DNA of 24,088 nt. Origin: a virus. The notes under the pieces are model-generated. The model ran no database searches. It saw only the letters and a program-made list of their open reading frames with translations, and was not told the origin of the DNA. The position numbers were made by a program, and so were the translations under genes. The stretch spans positions 1 to 24,088 of IMG/VR virus record IMGVR_UViG_3300024262_002289; one strand, 5' to 3'. Below, piece by piece: positions 11,976 to 22,853 of this stretch (the first letter of the stretch is position 1; every line of letters starts with the position of its first letter).

Positions 11976-12703
11976 GAGATTATCTACTAGACTTGGTTGA
12001 ACATAGCTATGACTTAGGTTGTATTGATTTGATTAAGATAACAGGAACAGATACTGCAACCGCAGTTGATGGACTTGCAGAAGATAAGAGTGTTGTATTA
12101 CAAGCAAAGTTTCAAAAGCCAGTAGCAGACTATATTGGTACATTTGGCATGCCTAATTTAGCAAAATTAAAAATATTGCTTAACATTGGCGAATACAGAG
12201 AAAATGCAGAAATCTCTGTGAAGAGACAAGAACGCAATGGTGAACAAGCTCCGGTTGGATTGCATTTTAAGAATGCCTCTGGTGACTTTAAGAATGACTA
12301 TAGATTTATGGTTAGCGAAATTGTTAACGAAAAGCTCAAAGGCGTGAAGATGAAAGACGTGCCTTGGGATATTGAATTTGAGCCAACAACTGCAAGTATC
12401 ATGAGATTGAAAATGCAGGCACAGGCAAATGCTGAAGAAACAACATTTCAAACCAAAACAGAAGATGGGCACTTGAAGTTTTTGTTTGGTGATCATAGCA
12501 CACACGCAGGTGACTTTGTGTTCCAACATGACGTTGGTGGCAAACTAACTAAAACTTGGAGTTGGCCAGTGCAACAGTTTATAGCAATCATGAACTTAAC
12601 TGGAGACAAAACTGTGAGGATAAGTGATAGTGGTGCAACAAAGATCACAGTCGATTCGGGTATTGCAGTATATAATTACATACTTCCTGCACAGAGCAAG
12701 TAA
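11972..12703 (+). CDS. 45: sliding clamp / DNA polymerase processivity factor, gp45-like
   Basis: A 243-residue protein of the size of T4 gp45 (228). It is rich in beta strands, with GTFGMPNLAKLKILLNIGEY (residues about 56-75) aligning with the gp45 YDLNGFLGILSLVNDDAE region, followed by AEISVKRQERNG. A second half has the repeated clamp fold, including LKFLFGDHSTHAGDFVFQHD. gp45 forms a trimeric ring that tethers gp43 and also activates late transcription. The gene overlaps the methyltransferase stop by four bases and its own stop overlaps the next start by one, placing it in the replication operon. Confidence 0.8.
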   Translation: MRDYLLDLVEHSYDLGCIDLIKITGTDTATAVDGLAEDKSVVLQAKFQKPVADYIGTFGMPNLAKLKILLNIGEYRENAEISVKRQERNGEQAPVGLHFKNASGDFKNDYRFMVSEIVNEKLKGVKMKDVPWDIEFEPTTASIMRLKMQAQANAEETTFQTKTEDGHLKFLFGDHSTHAGDFVFQHDVGGKLTKTWSWPVQQFIAIMNLTGDKTVRISDSGATKITVDSGIAVYNYILPAQSK

Positions 12704-14163
12704 TGCTTGAACAGGATAACCTAACACTAAAACAAAAAGACTATGCAGTATTCTTGCCAGCTATCAGCAGTTTCTATGCTGGCTACATAGGCAAGGAACG
12801 TTTTCCTGCAAGTGACAAAAATAAAATCATTGGTGATAGGTTGCCAAAAGGCATTCCTAGCATGGAAAGTCTTAATTGGCTAAACAGCAAAGAAGCATTG
12901 TTTCCTTACAAGTATAGTTTGTATTCAGCCGGACATGCTGATATGGACCTTAACAAACAAGTACCCAAAGAAGACATGGTTCGCAACAGAGAAGCAGATA
13001 CTATAATGCTTGCAGACTCAGGTGGATTCCAAATTGCCAAAGGTGTATGGCCTGGTGCTTGGGCTGATCCTAAAGACAAAGCCTGTGAAAAAAAACGTGA
13101 ACAGGTGATTGCATGGCAAATGGGTATAGCAACACATGGTATGACCATGGATATTCCAACATGGACTTACTTAGACAAGAAAGCAAGTCAAGCCTGCGGC
13201 ATTCACAGTTATGATGATGCAGTAAATGCTACTCTGTTTAACAATGAATTTTGGATGCAGAGTAGAAGTGGCGACTTAAAAATACTAAACGTATTGCAAG
13301 GTTCCAATCACACAGAAGCAGATCATTGGTATGATCTCATGAAAGGTTTTTGTTCAGACAAGTATGATCGACCATTTGATGGTTGGGGTATGGGTGGACA
13401 AAACATGTGTGATGTGCATTTGGTATTGAAACGTCTAGTTACACTTATACACGAAGGTTTGTTGGAAAAAGGACAACATGATTGGATGCACTTTTTAGGT
13501 ACTAGCAAACTAGAGTGGGCATGTTTATTAACTGATGTACAACGCAGTATAAGACGGCATGCTAACTCAAACTTTACAATTAGTTTTGATTGTGCATCGC
13601 CATTCCTTGCAACTGCGAACGGGCAAGTGTATACTAACTTGCGTACCGAAGACAGAGGCAAGTGGAGTTACATGATGGAGGCCACTGCTGATGACAAAAA
13701 GTATGCACATGGCACAGACAGTTTTCGTGATGTTGTGCTACGTGATGGTATACATGAAAAATTTGAAGATTCGCCAATAAGTTCAAGACTTACTATTGGA
13801 GATGTTTGCTACTATGCACCCGGCGACCTAAATAAGATTGGTAAAGAAGGTAAAACAAGTTGGGATAGTTTCAGTTACGCACTGCTTATGGGTCATAATG
13901 TTTGGCAACACATTAGAGCAGTACAAGATGCTAATGTAAGATATGATGAAGGTATACTACCAGGAATGTTGGTACATGAAACATTTGAACGTGTGCTATT
14001 TCGAGACGTAGTTGAAAGAGTATTTGAAGCAAGAGATTACAACAAAAGCATGCAGATTATTGAAGACAACAGTAAGTTTTGGGATAGTATCAAAGGCACA
14101 AGAGGTTTTACTGGTAAGAAGATTGTTAACAGTGCAAGTCAGTTTAATGCACTATTTGATTGA
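12703..14163 (+). CDS. dpdA: TGT-like transglycosylase, probable DNA-guanine transglycosylase (DpdA type)
   Basis: A 486-residue protein with tRNA-guanine transglycosylase signatures: MLADSGGFQIAKG (Asp105 of DSGGFQ), FDGWGMGGQ (227-232, matching the substrate-binding G-G-x-x-x-G-E region), MHFLGTSKLEW (matching YLMGVG) and FTISFDCASPF (Asp296, where TGT has its nucleophilic Asp in FDCVxPTR). TGT swaps guanine for a 7-deazaguanine base. DpdA relatives do this in DNA, including in phages. The canonical zinc site C-x-C-x2-C is not visible. Placement in the replication operon, with folE and queD nearby, supports a DNA rather than tRNA target. The family call is firm; the DNA target is inference. 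Confidence 0.8.
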   Translation: MLEQDNLTLKQKDYAVFLPAISSFYAGYIGKERFPASDKNKIIGDRLPKGIPSMESLNWLNSKEALFPYKYSLYSAGHADMDLNKQVPKEDMVRNREADTIMLADSGGFQIAKGVWPGAWADPKDKACEKKREQVIAWQMGIATHGMTMDIPTWTYLDKKASQACGIHSYDDAVNATLFNNEFWMQSRSGDLKILNVLQGSNHTEADHWYDLMKGFCSDKYDRPFDGWGMGGQNMCDVHLVLKRLVTLIHEGLLEKGQHDWMHFLGTSKLEWACLLTDVQRSIRRHANSNFTISFDCASPFLATANGQVYTNLRTEDRGKWSYMMEATADDKKYAHGTDSFRDVVLRDGIHEKFEDSPISSRLTIGDVCYYAPGDLNKIGKEGKTSWDSFSYALLMGHNVWQHIRAVQDANVRYDEGILPGMLVHETFERVLFRDVVERVFEARDYNKSMQIIEDNSKFWDSIKGTRGFTGKKIVNSASQFNALFD

Positions 14164-19048: not shown

Positions 19049-19735
19049 ATGACAATTTCCAATATTATTACACAAAGATTAAAGAAAGCCAACAAGAGAT
19101 ACTGGGCTGGTGACAACATCAGTGGTTTTCTGCATGATGGTGACAAAGAAGCATTGATTGAAGAACTAGTGCCAAAGTTTGAAGCAGTATTAGATGGACT
19201 TATAATTGACAGAGAAAATGATCCAAACAGTAACGATACTGGAAGACGTCTTGCCAAAATGTATATTAATGAATTGATGAGTGGCAGATATAACCCTATG
19301 CCTAATGCAACCAGTTTTCCAAATCATTTAGAAGACAGATATGATGGAATGTTGGTTGTAAGAAGTGAACTTAAGAGTATGTGTTCACATCATCATCAAC
19401 CAGTAACTGGAACTGCATACATAGGATTGCTTGCTGCTGATCATCTAATAGGATTGAGCAAGTACACAAGAATTGCACAGTGGTGTGCAAGAAGAGGTAC
19501 ATTGCAAGAAGAACTTGCAATGGACATAGCCAGAGAAATAATGAAAGCAACTGACAGTAAAGATGTTGGTGTTTATATTCAAGCAACACATGGTTGTTGT
19601 GAAAATAGAGGCATCATGGCACACAGTAGTTTAACACAAACTACAGTATTAAAAGGTTCTTTCAAGACTGACCCTGGCACAAAGAAAGAGTTCATGGACA
19701 ATATTAAGTTGCAACAAGATTATAGTCCACGATAA
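19049..19735 (+). CDS. folE: GTP cyclohydrolase I
   Basis: A 228-residue enzyme that converts GTP to dihydroneopterin triphosphate, the first step of both folate and 7-deazaguanine synthesis. Zinc ligands are in place: Cys112 and His115 (KSMCSHHHQPV) and Cys183 (THGCCENRG), matching E. coli C110, H113 and C181. LIGLSKYTRIAQWCARR and LQEELAMDIAREIM are the classic FolE helices, with GIMAHSSLTQTTVLKG near the end. Length is near the usual 222. With a transglycosylase and QueD nearby, the most likely product route is preQ0 or a derivative for phage DNA, though boosting the host folate pool is possible. Confidence 0.95.
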   Translation: MTISNIITQRLKKANKRYWAGDNISGFLHDGDKEALIEELVPKFEAVLDGLIIDRENDPNSNDTGRRLAKMYINELMSGRYNPMPNATSFPNHLEDRYDGMLVVRSELKSMCSHHHQPVTGTAYIGLLAADHLIGLSKYTRIAQWCARRGTLQEELAMDIAREIMKATDSKDVGVYIQATHGCCENRGIMAHSSLTQTTVLKGSFKTDPGTKKEFMDNIKLQQDYSPR

Positions 19736-19787
19736 AACAACCATGGCAGAGTCGATCCTGCCTTAACACCCTCGAGAAGGAAACAAA

Positions 19788-20855
19788 ATGAAGGTTATAA
19801 AACTATTGGCAGTACTTCTGTCAGTTATGTTTTTCAGTGTTGCACATGCTGGAGACAAAGTAAAAGTAGGTTTTATCTATGTTGGCCCAACAGGCGATCA
19901 TGGATGGACCTATAGACACGATATAGGAAGACAGGATGTTGAAAAGCATTTTGGCGACAAAGTTGAAACAACTTTTATTGAAAGTGTAAAGTATGGTCCT
20001 GATGCAGAACGTGCAATTAGGGCTATGGCAAAAAGCGGAGCAGATATTATATTTGCTACAAGTTTTGGTTACATGGAGCCTATGCTTAAAGTAGCAAAAG
20101 AATTTCCAAATGTAAAATTTGAACATGCTACAGGTTACAAGCAATCTGATAATATGGCAAGTTATGGTTTAAGATTATATCAAGCAAGACACGTACAAGG
20201 TGTTATAGCAGGTATGATGACCAAGACCAACAAAATTTGCTACGTTGGTGCATTTCCAATACCAGAAGTTATTAGAGAAATTAACACCTACTACTTGGGT
20301 GCTAAGAGTGTAAATCCAGATGTTGATATTGACATTATTTGGGTAAACAGTTGGTACAATCCTGTTAAAGAAGGTGAAGCAGCCAAAGTGTTAATTACAC
20401 AAGGATGTGATATGGTTGCTCAGCATACTGACTCACCATCACCATTACAAGTTGCACAAAAAGAAGGTGTATTTGGTTTTGGTCAAGCAAGCAATCAATA
20501 CAAGTTTGCTCCGAAGGCTCAGTTGACTGCTACTATTGACAACTGGTCACCATATTACATTGCTAAGGTACAAGGTGTAATTGATGGTACTTGGAAAACT
20601 GGTGATTACTTTGGTCACATGAATGAAGATGTTGTACAAATGGCTCCGTTTACAAACATGCCAGCGGACGTAAAAGCATTTGCACAAAAGATCAAAGATG
20701 GTATTACCAACGGAAAATACTTTGCATTTACAGGTCCTATCAAAGATAACACAGGCAAACTACAGTTGAAAGACGGTGAAATTGCTGATGACGCACACCT
20801 TAACAGCATGATGTACTATGTTGAAGGTATTGACGCTAAAGTACCAGGGAACTAA
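19788..20855 (+). CDS. BMP-family periplasmic substrate-binding protein
   Basis: A 355-residue secreted protein. The signal peptide has Lys at 2 and 5, a hydrophobic core LLAVLLSVMFFSVA and an AHA|G cleavage site near residue 21; there is no lipobox Cys. The mature part starts KVKVGFIYVGPTGDHGWTYR then HDIGRQDVE, a hallmark of the BMP (basic membrane protein/PnrA-like) type I binding proteins that feed ABC importers, many for purine nucleosides. ADIIFATSFGYMEPM, KICYVGAFPIPEVIREIN and GCDMVAQHTDSPSPLQVA are further family segments. GAAGGAA precedes the ATG. No permease or ATPase is present, so it would have to dock with a host importer. The fold call is firm; the ligand is unknown. Confidence 0.9.
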   Translation: MKVIKLLAVLLSVMFFSVAHAGDKVKVGFIYVGPTGDHGWTYRHDIGRQDVEKHFGDKVETTFIESVKYGPDAERAIRAMAKSGADIIFATSFGYMEPMLKVAKEFPNVKFEHATGYKQSDNMASYGLRLYQARHVQGVIAGMMTKTNKICYVGAFPIPEVIREINTYYLGAKSVNPDVDIDIIWVNSWYNPVKEGEAAKVLITQGCDMVAQHTDSPSPLQVAQKEGVFGFGQASNQYKFAPKAQLTATIDNWSPYYIAKVQGVIDGTWKTGDYFGHMNEDVVQMAPFTNMPADVKAFAQKIKDGITNGKYFAFTGPIKDNTGKLQLKDGEIADDAHLNSMMYYVEGIDAKVPGN

Positions 20856-20858
20856 AAC

Positions 20859-21716
20859 ATGATACCAGTAATTGATTTTCAAAGCAAAACAGTACTGGAA
20901 GAGATACGCGAAGCCTATACAACTGTAGGCTTCGCAGTCTTTACTGATGCACTAAACACACAAGATCAAGATGATATGAAAAGTTGGTGGGAATTAATGC
21001 AAGACTTTTTTGATCTTGAACAAGAAACCAAAAACAAATACAGTTATCAAGCAGAAAACAATTTAGGTTACAGCATTGTTGGTGCAGAGAATGTAGACCC
21101 TAACGGTCCGAAAGACATGAAAGAGAGCTTTAATTATAATAACACTCGTATGCCTGAAGAACTATGGCCTGTTGATATAAACGGATTTAAAGCAACTGCA
21201 TTGCAATCAATAGACATTGCAGACAAACTTACCTTAAAAATACTAGAAAAATTTGACTTAATTTTAGATTCAGGCACAACACTAGTTGATGCACATCTAA
21301 GACCTTACAACACAACAAGAGTAATACACTATCCTGCAATGAAACCTACACTAGATAATCAACTGCGTATCGGCGAACATTCAGACTACGGCACAATTAC
21401 ACTGCTTTGGGATATAAATGGGGTTCCTGGCCTAGAAGTGCAAGACATAGATGGCAAGTGGCATCACGTTCCTTATGTATGGAATGGTGTGGTTGTAAAC
21501 ATTGGCGACTTGTTACAACGTTGGACTAACGATTATTTCAAAAGCACAAGACACAGAGTAGAAAACAGTCACTGTCACATTCCACGTTTTAGTATGCCAC
21601 ATTTTGTAGATCCAACTCCAGGGACTATAGTACAAAACCTATTAAAAGAACCAAACCATTATGATCCAATTGAATCAAAAGAATATCTAATGTGGCGATT
21701 AGCACAGAGTTATTAA
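20859..21716 (+). CDS. 2-oxoglutarate/Fe(II) oxygenase, isopenicillin-N-synthase-like
   Basis: A 285-residue dioxygenase. The N-terminal domain reads IPVIDFQSKTVLEEIREAYT then TVGFAVF, typical of the DIOX_N region. The catalytic core has IGEHSDYGTITLLW (His174, Asp176), KSTRHRVEN (His232) and RFSMPHF (Arg243-x-Ser245, the 2-oxoglutarate or substrate clamp). All iron ligands are present. Family members hydroxylate, desaturate or cyclise small molecules. It starts 3 bases after the BMP gene and its stop overlaps the reductase start by one base. The substrate is unknown; coupling with an import protein hints at an imported small molecule or a pathway intermediate. Confidence 0.88.
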   Translation: MIPVIDFQSKTVLEEIREAYTTVGFAVFTDALNTQDQDDMKSWWELMQDFFDLEQETKNKYSYQAENNLGYSIVGAENVDPNGPKDMKESFNYNNTRMPEELWPVDINGFKATALQSIDIADKLTLKILEKFDLILDSGTTLVDAHLRPYNTTRVIHYPAMKPTLDNQLRIGEHSDYGTITLLWDINGVPGLEVQDIDGKWHHVPYVWNGVVVNIGDLLQRWTNDYFKSTRHRVENSHCHIPRFSMPHFVDPTPGTIVQNLLKEPNHYDPIESKEYLMWRLAQSY

Positions 21717-22420
21717 TGAATCTTAAAATTACAGAAGTTGAACACTATACTGATAGTTTATTCCGTATACGTACAGAACGTCCGCAGTCATTTAGATTTA
21801 CTGCTGGCGAGTTTGTTATGATAAGTTTGCCCGATACTCCTAAAAGAGCATACAGTATGACCAGTGGTCCTTATGATGACTACATAGAATTTTATTCAAT
21901 CAAAGTGCCAAATGGACCACTTACCAGTAAACTACAACATGTGAAAGTAGGCGATTTATTGGATGTTGGAACTAAACCAACTGGTACTCTTACACTGGCT
22001 AATCTCGAACTTAGCGGAAACTTATGGTTACTGGCCACAGGAACAGGAATAGCACCGTTTATAAGTTTGTTAAAGGACCCAGAAACATTTGAAAGTTTTA
22101 GCCAGATCTCTGTGTATTGGAGTGTGCGAACTGCACAAGAACTTCTGGCATATGATGATTTTTTAAAACAATTGGATATAAAATATGTTCCAACAGTTAC
22201 ACAAGATCCCACATGGAATGGAAGAAAAACACGTATTACACACACTATCCGGCATGGTGAAATTGCAAGTAATTTAGAACCAAATGATCACAAAATAATG
22301 ATTTGTGGTAATTTAGAGTTCAATCAGGAAGTTGCAACTATGTTTGATGGTTGGGGATTTAAAGAAGGCAGTAGTAAACAGGCAGGTACGTTTGTGCAAG
22401 AAAGAGCATTTGTTGGTTGA
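21716..22420 (+). CDS. fpr: ferredoxin/flavodoxin-NADP+ reductase (Fpr-like)
   Basis: A 234-residue FAD enzyme. KRAYSMTSGP (Arg44-x-Tyr46-Ser47) binds FAD, ATGTGIAPFISLL (109-114) binds NADP, and MICGNLEFNQEV (Cys197-Gly-Asn) is the nicotinamide-side motif. The chain ends AFVG, as bacterial Fpr proteins do with a short tail after the F-V segment. It moves electrons between NADPH and ferredoxin or flavodoxin. I choose ATG 21716, overlapping the oxygenase stop (TAATG), over a start at 21692. Possible uses are feeding radical-SAM or diiron enzymes. No ferredoxin or flavodoxin gene is in the window. Confidence 0.9.
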   Translation: MNLKITEVEHYTDSLFRIRTERPQSFRFTAGEFVMISLPDTPKRAYSMTSGPYDDYIEFYSIKVPNGPLTSKLQHVKVGDLLDVGTKPTGTLTLANLELSGNLWLLATGTGIAPFISLLKDPETFESFSQISVYWSVRTAQELLAYDDFLKQLDIKYVPTVTQDPTWNGRKTRITHTIRHGEIASNLEPNDHKIMICGNLEFNQEVATMFDGWGFKEGSSKQAGTFVQERAFVG

Positions 22421-22469: not shown

Positions 22470-22853
22470 ATGCATAGTGTAGACACGTTAGAAGTGGCAA
22501 AGCAAGAGGGCAGAGCTCCTTGGACTGATGTGCAGTTGGAAACAAAAGAATTTGTTGTATACAATGATGGCTTTCCAGTTACGCCAGGGCACACACTGAT
22601 TGTGCCTCGTGAGTCAAACATGCAAAACTTGCTTCGTTGTTTCAATTACGCAATGCAAATGGGCAATGCAAACGTTGAAGGTGAAGGTAACGAGATTACA
22701 GGCTTTAACGTTGGTATCAATGTAGGTACAAGTGCAGGTCAAACTGTGATGTATCCTCATGTGCATTTGATTTTTAGAAGAGACGGCGACTGTGAAGATC
22801 CAACAGGTGGTGTCCGTAATGTAATCCCAGGGAGTGGCAACTATGGCAACTGA
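22470..22853 (+). CDS. HIT-family nucleotide hydrolase/transferase
   Basis: A 127-residue histidine-triad protein. FVVYNDGFPVTPGHTLIVPR is the family's first strand-turn-strand region, and FNVGINVGTSAGQTVMYPHV then HLIFRRDGD the active site. The nucleophilic His97 and the third His99 are kept, but the first His of H-x-H-x-H is Tyr95. The end GGVRNVIPGSGNYGN matches bacterial HIT proteins with a DPxGGVRxVIP tail. HIT enzymes split dinucleoside polyphosphates or nucleoside phosphoramidates. It begins 26 bases after a sigma70 -10 box, and the acidic gene starts within its last 11 bases. It could recycle nucleotides or alarmones such as Ap4A; this is inference. Confidence 0.85.
   Translation: MHSVDTLEVAKQEGRAPWTDVQLETKEFVVYNDGFPVTPGHTLIVPRESNMQNLLRCFNYAMQMGNANVEGEGNEITGFNVGINVGTSAGQTVMYPHVHLIFRRDGDCEDPTGGVRNVIPGSGNYGN

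Follow-up and report, generated by a model that had tools for sequence, protein, structure and literature searches.

A phage-encoded BMP-family binding protein and its near-constant dioxygenase partner: a probable cassette for nucleobase scavenging

The BMP-family gene at positions 19788–20855 (+ strand) of the window probably encodes the ligand-catching component of a mobile viral cassette for nucleobase scavenging, in which a purine base would be taken up via a host importer, oxidised, and passed to salvage. The window, i.e., the whole stretch of DNA that was analysed, is a 24,088-base record of a marine bacterial virus with a phage-type family-B DNA polymerase (phrog_262, 6e-190). In related loci of many further ocean viruses, the BMP gene is half of a cassette with a near-constant 2OG-Fe(II) dioxygenase partner. 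Phage-carried binding proteins are known for phosphate; compared with known phage binding proteins, the notable features here are the near-constant enzyme partner, the spread of the pair, and its chromosomal inserts. No description of a BMP-2OG nucleobase pair was found in the open PMC literature, including the available portions of PMC7029224, PMC5628999, and PMC5504273.

The binding protein, its partner gene, and the missing importer

The gene and its neighbours in the window are as follows.

19049..19735, + strand: GTP cyclohydrolase I FolE (Pfam PF01227, 9e-40), outside the cassette
19775..19781, + strand: AGAAGGA, a ribosome-binding-like stretch before the BMP start, read from the sequence
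19788..20855, + strand: BMP-family substrate-binding protein, complete ORF with ATG start, 355 aa (Pfam PF02608, E = 1.2e-47)
19788..19850, + strand: predicted signal peptide MKVIKLLAVLLSVMFFSVAHA (21 aa), cleavage predicted at AHA|G from sequence features
20859..21716, + strand: 2OG-Fe(II) dioxygenase, 285 aa, 3 nt after the BMP gene (Pfam PF03171, 9e-19; PF14226, 1e-14)
21692..22420, + strand: FAD/NAD(P) ferredoxin-reductase-like protein (PF00175, 1e-11), overlapping the end of the dioxygenase gene
22470..22853, + strand: HIT-family protein (PF01230, 3e-10), a neighbour in 8 of 80 viral loci

The ORF was confirmed as a complete BMP-family binding protein with predicted secretion. Pfam Bmp (PF02608) matched residues 24–286 with 162.8 bits (cut-off 24.1), and GPTGDHGWTYR occupies residues 33–43. 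The N-terminus (MKVIKLLAVLLSVMFFSVAHA|G) presents the regions of an export signal, with a basic start, a hydrophobic core (mean Kyte-Doolittle 2.26, residues 5–18), and AHA before G22; no lipobox cysteine was seen in the N-terminus of this protein. The initial annotation, which had described a complete phage-encoded BMP protein with a signal peptide ending in AHA|G, was thus borne out for the protein and, as far as n-, h-, and cleavage-region features indicate, for the signal peptide. Among 81 viral rows, 29 could be assessed by a simple pattern, with AxA near the junction in 25 and a cysteine at 13–30 in none. Around the ribosome-binding-like stretch, the viral-type copies in SAR116 genomes carry a leader resembling that of the window (ACACCCTC...GAAAGGAA). 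The dN/dS of the BMP gene against five viral relatives was approximately 0.07–0.11, which indicates purifying selection; the dioxygenase frame of another locus (L077) is broken, and dN/dS for that locus was set aside. GC and GC3 of the gene were unremarkable compared to six other window genes, the window BMP matched no PHROG family, and PADLOC returned nothing for six window proteins. Because FolE, BMP, and dioxygenase genes recur in identical order in independent viral contigs, including two of 328,292 (L006) and 316,012 bases (L049), the BMP gene is not chimeric; a bacterial or chimeric contig, named in the initial annotation as refuting its reading, was checked for and not found.

A scan of viral contigs with a peptide pattern matched 277 stretches, 275 of them relatives; the best 80 of these 275 (75–92% identical) were fetched, and viral BMP counts given here cover these 80 loci unless stated otherwise. 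The BMP frame is full-length in 79 of the 80 and runs off the contig in one. The dioxygenase gene is next after the BMP gene in 74 of the 77 loci with room, with a spacing of −4 to +5 nt. A reverse scan from the dioxygenase gave 221 relatives, and a BMP gene was found ≤400 nt upstream in 76 of the 79 loci with room among the best 80; the two sets overlap, as many contigs are common to both. The forward exceptions are L054 and L055, with Clp-protease-like and tRNA-synthetase-like genes between the pair in L054 and the same ORF layout in L055, and L078, in which a complete NMT1/THI5-type ABC importer (binding protein, ATPase, and permease) and an arylsulfotransferase-like gene are located between the BMP and dioxygenase genes. 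The reverse exceptions are L200 and L243, which carry the same four intervening genes as L078, and L244, which carries part of the arylsulfotransferase-like gene. Across paired loci, identity of the dioxygenase to the window copy ranges from 54% to 95%. The dioxygenase partner had not been mentioned in the initial annotation.

Nucleic acids or peptides are commonly assumed to be the substrates of many phage 2OG oxygenases, and the substrate of the enzyme found here could be a nucleic acid or protein of the phage or its host, the pairing with the BMP gene being historical. This is very improbable given that the pairing is kept over 54–95% dioxygenase identity, in many contexts, and at a near-fixed spacing of a few nucleotides, and that the active site is of the free-base type, as described below.

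The pair is tied to no single phage lineage. Its surroundings include the window type, with FolE and glycosyltransferases, and a lysozyme/gp43 type; a phage lysozyme gene is close to the BMP gene in 45 of 80 loci, and the DNA polymerase of L017, a family-B enzyme different from that of the window, was matched in 18 of 80. The T4-type capsid family gp23 was found in 4 of the 50 longest contigs, searched whole (including L006 and L049), most of the others being short fragments. In 16 of 80 loci, none of the markers used was found; a PHROG scan of ten ORFs from nine such loci gave a family match for nine of the ten, with no match for L043. The flanks of L044, L063, L065, and L080 contain ribonucleotide reductase, L065 also contains an SbcC-like nuclease, and L067 a phrog_17 DNA polymerase, while the ORFs of L054, L072, and L074 matched metabolic PHROG families. 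A tRNA was detected in the flank of 10 of the 45 viral loci scanned, none adjoining the pair. Of the 50,697 records in a phage collection, 14 matched the BMP protein at ≤38% identity, all unannotated and of fecal or unstated source ("Bacteriophage sp."); the dioxygenase had one match (24% identity), and no cultured or named phage with this BMP was found among these 50,697 records.

Given these many backgrounds, FolE, which lies inside the fetched flank of 16 of 80 viral loci, is a neighbour in part of the phages and not the reason for the BMP gene; a FolE-feeding role was rejected on this count. The ferredoxin-reductase-like neighbour was matched near the BMP gene in one of the 80 relatives (L002). 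Purine-type phosphoribosyltransferase genes are found in a total of 37 of 80 loci. Among the 45 loci with at least 2300 nt downstream, 26 have one and 19 have none. An APRT relative is located downstream in 31 of 80 loci, mostly directly after the dioxygenase gene; the sole copy scanned (L010, cut by the contig end) scored 145.8 bits against a cut-off of 125 for NF002636 and fell below the cut-offs of other models. An XPRT-like gene, below the family cut-off in both copies scanned, is found 4.4–6.3 kb from the BMP start in 6 of 80 loci (L002, L006, L007, L049, L077, and L078), all with FolE; at this distance, such a gene would mostly fall past the end of the window.

Neither a BMP-type permease (BPD_transp_2, PF02653) nor an ABC ATPase (PF00005) was found in the window record, and PF02653 was absent from all 50 related viral records searched, which may be fragments. 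Among 20 viral records, nine had an ABC ATPase match at E ≤ 0.001 and one was above the cut-off, namely the NMT1-type importer of L078. The earlier description of the gene as lying in an operon without any permease or ATPase therefore holds for the window and fails for the variants L078, L200, and L243, which carry a complete importer of another family within the cassette. Without a BMP-type permease of its own, the viral BMP must dock on a host importer, and the dependence on the host proposed in the initial annotation is supported. Cyanophages are comparable in that they carry the binding protein PstS without the rest of the host ABC importer; however, PstS binds phosphate rather than a nucleobase and has no coupled enzyme.

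A phage binding protein that has no permease and differs by fixed changes from its bacterial orthologues could also serve as a periplasmic sink or competitor that alters uptake by the host importer and imports nothing. The near-constant coupling to an enzyme in which no signal peptide was seen, together with the nearby phosphoribosyltransferase genes, fits intracellular use of the ligand instead and leaves the sink a remote prospect.

Ligand class of the binding protein and active site of the dioxygenase

The best solved relatives of the window BMP are Brucella melitensis 3s99 (9e-125) and Pseudomonas AtzT 6pi5 (4e-101), with homology across nearly the entire mature protein. According to the available portion of PMC6834077, AtzT (6pi5/6pi6) was crystallised with guanine, binds guanine and adenine at 110 nM and 2.5 μM, respectively, and binds other nucleobases at 620 μM or weaker; the ligand of 3s99, an unpublished structural-genomics entry, is a modelled adenine. 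The AtzT base contacts listed there (Tyr45, Ser97, Phe98, Glu165, Trp194, Asn218, and Asn220) map to W40, S92, F93, E160, W189, H213, and D215 of the window BMP. All seven letters are those of 3s99, while AtzT differs at 45, 218, and 220 (Tyr, Asn, and Asn as compared to Trp, His, and Asp). None of the seven residues varies among all 81 viral sequences, and the bacterial ones show almost no variation there. Because all seven base-contact positions match the adenine-modelled 3s99, the pocket is placed by its sequence in the free-purine-base branch (3s99 and AtzT) and not in the PnrA nucleoside branch. With the seven contacts kept and PnrA-type receptors distant, the natural ligand of the viral BMP is most likely a purine base in free form or a closely related compound.

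The initial annotation had favoured a nucleoside or related compound as ligand, with PnrA-like uptake perhaps supplying GTP to the neighbouring FolE. PnrA/TmpC and BmpA/BmpD nucleoside receptors do share the Pfam Bmp family and the fold, and FolE is directly upstream in the window. However, the top solved relatives are base binders, and Foldseek identity, calculated from a low-confidence model, is 53% to 3s99 and 46% to AtzT, as compared to 15–18% to PnrA and BmpD entries; FolE is near the BMP gene in a minority of loci, whereas the dioxygenase is nearly constant. Neither the nucleoside ligand nor the supply of FolE was borne out, and both together would be a highly unlikely explanation. Residues of PnrA-type receptors that contact ribose (Asp/Lys) are listed in the portion of PMC13325309 available here.

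The viral proteins form a subtype. We compared 86 viral-type sequences (81 viral and 5 from SAR116) with 89 other bacterial rows, which include 12 SAR116 housekeeping rows; at least one gene is represented there by two rows (L173 and L185). At 22 positions, a single letter is found in ≥95% of the viral-type set and in ≤10% of the bacterial set; these include C151 (G in 89 of 89 bacterial rows), Q132-A133 (E-G in 89 of 89), E164 (G in 87 of 89), C207, and Q237. E164 aligns with AtzT Asn169, which is bonded to Asn218 beside the ligand, so that the second shell is rebuilt in the viral clade. As the second shell and other sites differ from bacterial purine binders, the viral ligand may differ from adenine or be a variant of the usual purine. 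Compared to 3s99 and AtzT, the viral BMP thus retains all 3s99 contact letters and carries fixed changes (E164, C151, C207, Q132-A133, Q237, and others), has no adjoining permease or ATPase, and has a dioxygenase partner. AlphaFold models of the BMP and the dioxygenase (mean pLDDT 67 and 62) were too poor for pocket geometry to be used.

The nearest solved structure of the dioxygenase is a fungal thymine dioxygenase, thymine-7-hydroxylase (5c3p; 2e-26, or 5.6e-39 with a profile). Fifteen residues, including the base contacts N87, E122, R190, Y217, F292, and N294, are given in the available portion of PMC4787775, and a single offset puts all 15 on the correct letters of the 5c3p chain. By alignment, the viral enzyme presents the HxD...H and RxS ligands, with H174, D176, and H232 for Fe, Y158, R243, and S245 for 2OG, and Y177 and F249 as a base sandwich; the Fe and 2OG ligands of thymine-7-hydroxylase are kept, and the hydrophobic L192 is replaced by I156. 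Four of the six base contacts are kept (N87, R190, Y217, and F292 as N68, R154, Y177, and F249) and two are changed (E122 to N92 and N294 to D251), so that the full set of six thymine-7-hydroxylase contacts is not present; the six positions are invariant in 14 of 14 aligned sequences. Alignments read by eye show no equivalents of N87 and Y217 in 3oox and 3on7, and an equivalent of Y217 but not of N87 in TraH; the F292 equivalent says little, because it is common to 3oox, 3on7, TraH, and the viral enzyme alike. These residues suggest that the dioxygenase suits a free flat base other than thymine. Beyond the two changed contacts, the viral enzyme differs from thymine-7-hydroxylase in that the match reaches only 2e-26 and in being paired with a binding protein. 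Its PHROG family (phrog_30382) has no function assigned.

These comparisons bear on pyrimidine uptake, in which the dioxygenase would genuinely hydroxylate thymine or 5-methylpyrimidines and the BMP of the viral clade would have moved from purines to pyrimidines. The best solved relative and its four kept base contacts fit such a role, as do the fixed near-pocket change of G to E164 and the NMT1/THI5-type importer inside the cassette in one variant. Set against this, all seven BMP contact letters are those of 3s99, AtzT binds nucleobases besides guanine and adenine at best at 620 μM in the portion of PMC6834077 available here, the two thymine contacts E122 and N294 are replaced invariantly, and the partner phosphoribosyltransferases look purine-type. 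We consider the pyrimidine explanation unlikely, and a purine base remains the favoured ligand.

Cellular relatives, chromosomal inserts, and phylogeny

A search of genomes returned at least 588 BMP relatives, of which the best 80 loci were kept. The closest are in a SAR116 single-cell genome (86%) and in Rhodobacteraceae SB2 (72%), followed by relatives at 59% and less. Besides L082, none of the other 79 loci (flank up to 8 kb; best 80 of at least 588) had a match to the viral dioxygenase or phosphoribosyltransferase. In four loci (L083, L084, L085, and L133), xanthine dehydrogenase, 8-oxoguanine deaminase, adenosine deaminase, or a TadA-like deaminase surrounds the BMP gene together with an ATPase and permeases, as read gene by gene and partly by eye; these purine-base enzymes around cellular BMP genes are an independent pointer to purines.

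In the SAR116 family, a BMP gene was found in 43 of 58 genomes searched. Five of the 58 hold a viral-type copy (86%), each in addition to an ordinary copy at approximately 52–55%, and the dioxygenase gene is beside the viral-type copy in 5 of 5. At E ≤ 1e-50, the dioxygenase was detected in one of 385 genomes sampled from the class, the SAR116 genome itself. In L180 and L184, the pair has a tRNA-Arg gene on one side and a 52-bp repeat of the 3' end of that gene on the other, and a relative (L266) presents an empty site, seen for the Arg site only. In L181 and L183, 53-bp repeats of the tRNA-Leu end enclose the pair together with two caprolactamase/hydantoinase-subunit-like genes (scanned and below cut-off in L181, recognised by eye in L183); a HyuA query found no match to these genes in the 80 viral loci. 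The pair of L182 is flanked by imperfect 105-bp repeats that end, as judged by eye, in a stretch resembling a tRNA 3' end, and ARAGORN predicted no tRNA. The repeats are thus clear copies of a tRNA 3' end in four of the five loci. Approximately 160 nt before the BMP gene are 92–94% alike between L180 and L181, L182, and L183, and 97% over 216 nt between L180 and L184. The BMP-2OG pair therefore also moves as a small chromosomal insert.

Tycheposons, which are tRNA-targeted integrative elements, and other small cargo islands resemble these inserts. The SAR116 copies share with tRNA-targeted integrative elements the tRNA 3'-end repeats and an empty site in a relative; they differ in that no integrase was seen by eye among the ORFs between the repeats (2.5–6.8 kb) and in that their cargo is common to phages. 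Integrase-like ORFs were seen by eye at the same tRNA-Arg site in L267, L269, and L277. The tRNA-flanked inserts suggest that genes pass between phages and an abundant group of marine hosts. Because the pair is inserted there and the group has the importer that the viral BMP would need, SAR116 is a plausible, though not proven, host. One SAR116 housekeeping locus read by eye (L185) has permease- and ATPase-like genes beside the BMP gene and no purine enzyme beside this importer. Purine exchange in the surface ocean has been described, with purine-use genes in about half of SAR116 genomes (PMC11698098, as far as available). XPRT genes beside the SAR116 copies (G065 and G076) were considered as support and rejected; XPRT is a host gene there, as strong matches (E below 1e-60) were found in 43 of 58 family genomes and the gene is also beside the empty site.

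Besides the SAR116 inserts, SB2 is the sole cellular lineage found with the viral BMP subtype among the matches listed. The subtype is present in 4 of 4 SB2 genomes (L083 and L293–L295), in which other BMP relatives are ≤32% alike to it, and at E ≤ 1e-150 it was found in one of 390 genomes of an order sample, SB2 itself. The L083 protein, which belongs to neither set of the subtype comparison, is 72% identical to that of the window and has 18 of the 22 clade-typical positions. The operon order is the same in all four genomes, i.e., xanthine dehydrogenase, XdhC, ATPase, two permeases, BMP, a Rieske-only protein, a VanA_C-only oxygenase, and a GST-like protein. Compared to the viral cassette, this purine operon is complete, with its own xanthine dehydrogenase, two permeases, ATPase, and Rieske/VanA_C/GST module. 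The closest solved relatives of the VanA_C protein are SxtDIOX and SxtT, followed by the methylxanthine demethylases NdmB (2e-10) and NdmA. The combination of a divided Rieske oxygenase and a GST-like protein is reminiscent of NdmC/NdmD/NdmE in caffeine degradation. No Rieske or VanA_C match was found in the other 79 genome loci (best 80 of at least 588); a GST-like match was found in L159 at 26%.

A 94-row tree was built from the window, 46 of the 80 viral sequences (near-copies removed), 34 of 78 other bacterial sequences (one of 79 loci having been dropped at ORF picking), five SAR116 viral-type copies, and eight SAR116 housekeeping copies. The SAR116 viral-type copies and L083 are nested among the viral rows. 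On a thinned 54-row tree, the AU test rejected neither a viral and SAR116 clade without SB2 (p = 0.744, with a likelihood better than that of the free search) nor a viral and SB2 clade without SAR116 (p = 0.371). Gene transfer between phages and SAR116 or SB2 could fit these trees in either direction.

Proposed route of the imported base

In the purine-scavenging cassette proposed here, the BMP would be exported to the periplasm during infection, bind a free purine base or close derivative, and hand it to the host's BMP-type ABC importer. The dioxygenase, which the spacing suggests is translationally coupled to the BMP, would work in the cytosol and oxidise the imported base, possibly by hydroxylation or by oxidative removal of an N-methyl group. 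The product would enter salvage, in many phages by way of the phage's own purine-type phosphoribosyltransferase encoded downstream, and might thereby feed viral DNA synthesis. Several observations count against a purine cassette: the substrate of thymine-7-hydroxylase is a pyrimidine, while AtzT has poor affinity for nucleobases besides its two purines; phosphoribosyltransferase genes are missing from 19 of 45 loci, and the XPRT-like gene is below cut-off; and the viral clade differs from bacterial purine binders, with L185 having no purine enzyme. If true, infection would be linked to the surface-ocean traffic of free purines by a novel type of viral metabolic gene set, in which a "catcher" for nucleobases is almost always paired with an oxygenase. 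The dioxygenase of a nameless PHROG family would gain a function, and a virus would have a route, open to testing, for acquiring nucleotide components of extracellular origin.

A bolder and tentative possibility, which we hold to be rather less probable than the general scheme, is methylpurine recycling by marine phages. The viral BMP would bind an N-methylated purine, the dioxygenase would be a new oxidative N-demethylase, and the phosphoribosyltransferase would return the bared base. An oxygenase gene is near the viral BMP subtype wherever it was found, Rieske-type in SB2 and 2OG-type in phages and SAR116, suggesting a ligand that needs oxidative demethylation; the SB2 side is one evolutionary event, which keeps our confidence in methylpurine recycling low. 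The N-methylated purines could come, for instance, from decaying nucleic acid.

Viral-type BMP and its inserts in SAR116 genomes

Residues 151 and 207 of the secreted BMP-family substrate-binding protein are both cysteines, fixed across the viral clade; in bacterial orthologues the first of these positions is G, the second A or V. The two cysteines could form a disulfide in the periplasm.

20238-20240, BMP codon 151 (Cys)
20406-20408, BMP codon 207 (Cys)

Five SAR116-family genome loci carry BMP with the 2OG-Fe(II) dioxygenase gene (2OG) in inserts of 2.5-6.8 kb, flanked by tRNA 3′-end repeats that are imperfect in L182.

L180:7444-10285, BMP-2OG insert
L181:3899-10813, BMP-2OG insert
L182:3325-6249, BMP-2OG insert (imperfect repeats)
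L183:3632-10506, BMP-2OG insert
L184:8272-10857, BMP-2OG insert

No integrase was seen by eye among the ORFs between the repeats of these five loci; the tRNA-Arg site of L180 and L184 is occupied in other genomes by ORFs that look integrase-like by eye.

Neighbours of BMP in related viral loci

L078:9182-12640, complete NMT1/THI5-type ABC importer and arylsulfotransferase-like gene
L012:3321-3926, HAD-type phosphatase-like protein (Pfam match under cut-off)
L051:5035-5910, amidinotransferase-looking protein, 291 aa (by eye)

The importer of viral locus L078, comprising binding protein, ATPase and permease, lies with the arylsulfotransferase-like gene within the BMP-2OG cassette of a phage whose polymerase resembles that of the window; all four genes are shared by L200 and L243, two viral loci found through 2OG. 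Among the best 80 of 275 viral BMP relatives, a phosphatase-like gene of the L012 type stands immediately 5′ of BMP in 29, and the cluster containing the L051 protein, which had no match in Pfam and NCBIfam searches, occurs in seven.

Other genes of the window

12703-14163, DSGGFQ-containing protein, 486 aa
18269-18970, DegT-type aminotransferase ORF, 233 aa
966-1409, Ferritin/Dps-like phage protein (PF00210, 3e-19; phrog_3636)

The DSGGFQ stretch is reminiscent of tRNA/DNA-guanine transglycosylases. Searches of Pfam, PHROG and PADLOC gave no match for this protein, and its relatives at 27-32% identity, annotated as hypothetical, are found in large phages (e.g., PA5oct and Phosso); together with FolE (GTP cyclohydrolase I) and QueD, it may be a sign of 7-deazaguanine DNA modification. 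The DegT-type aminotransferase is possibly shortened: its ORF, the first start of which lies ~120 nt inside the NDP-sugar epimerase gene, covers only part of the 360-position profile.
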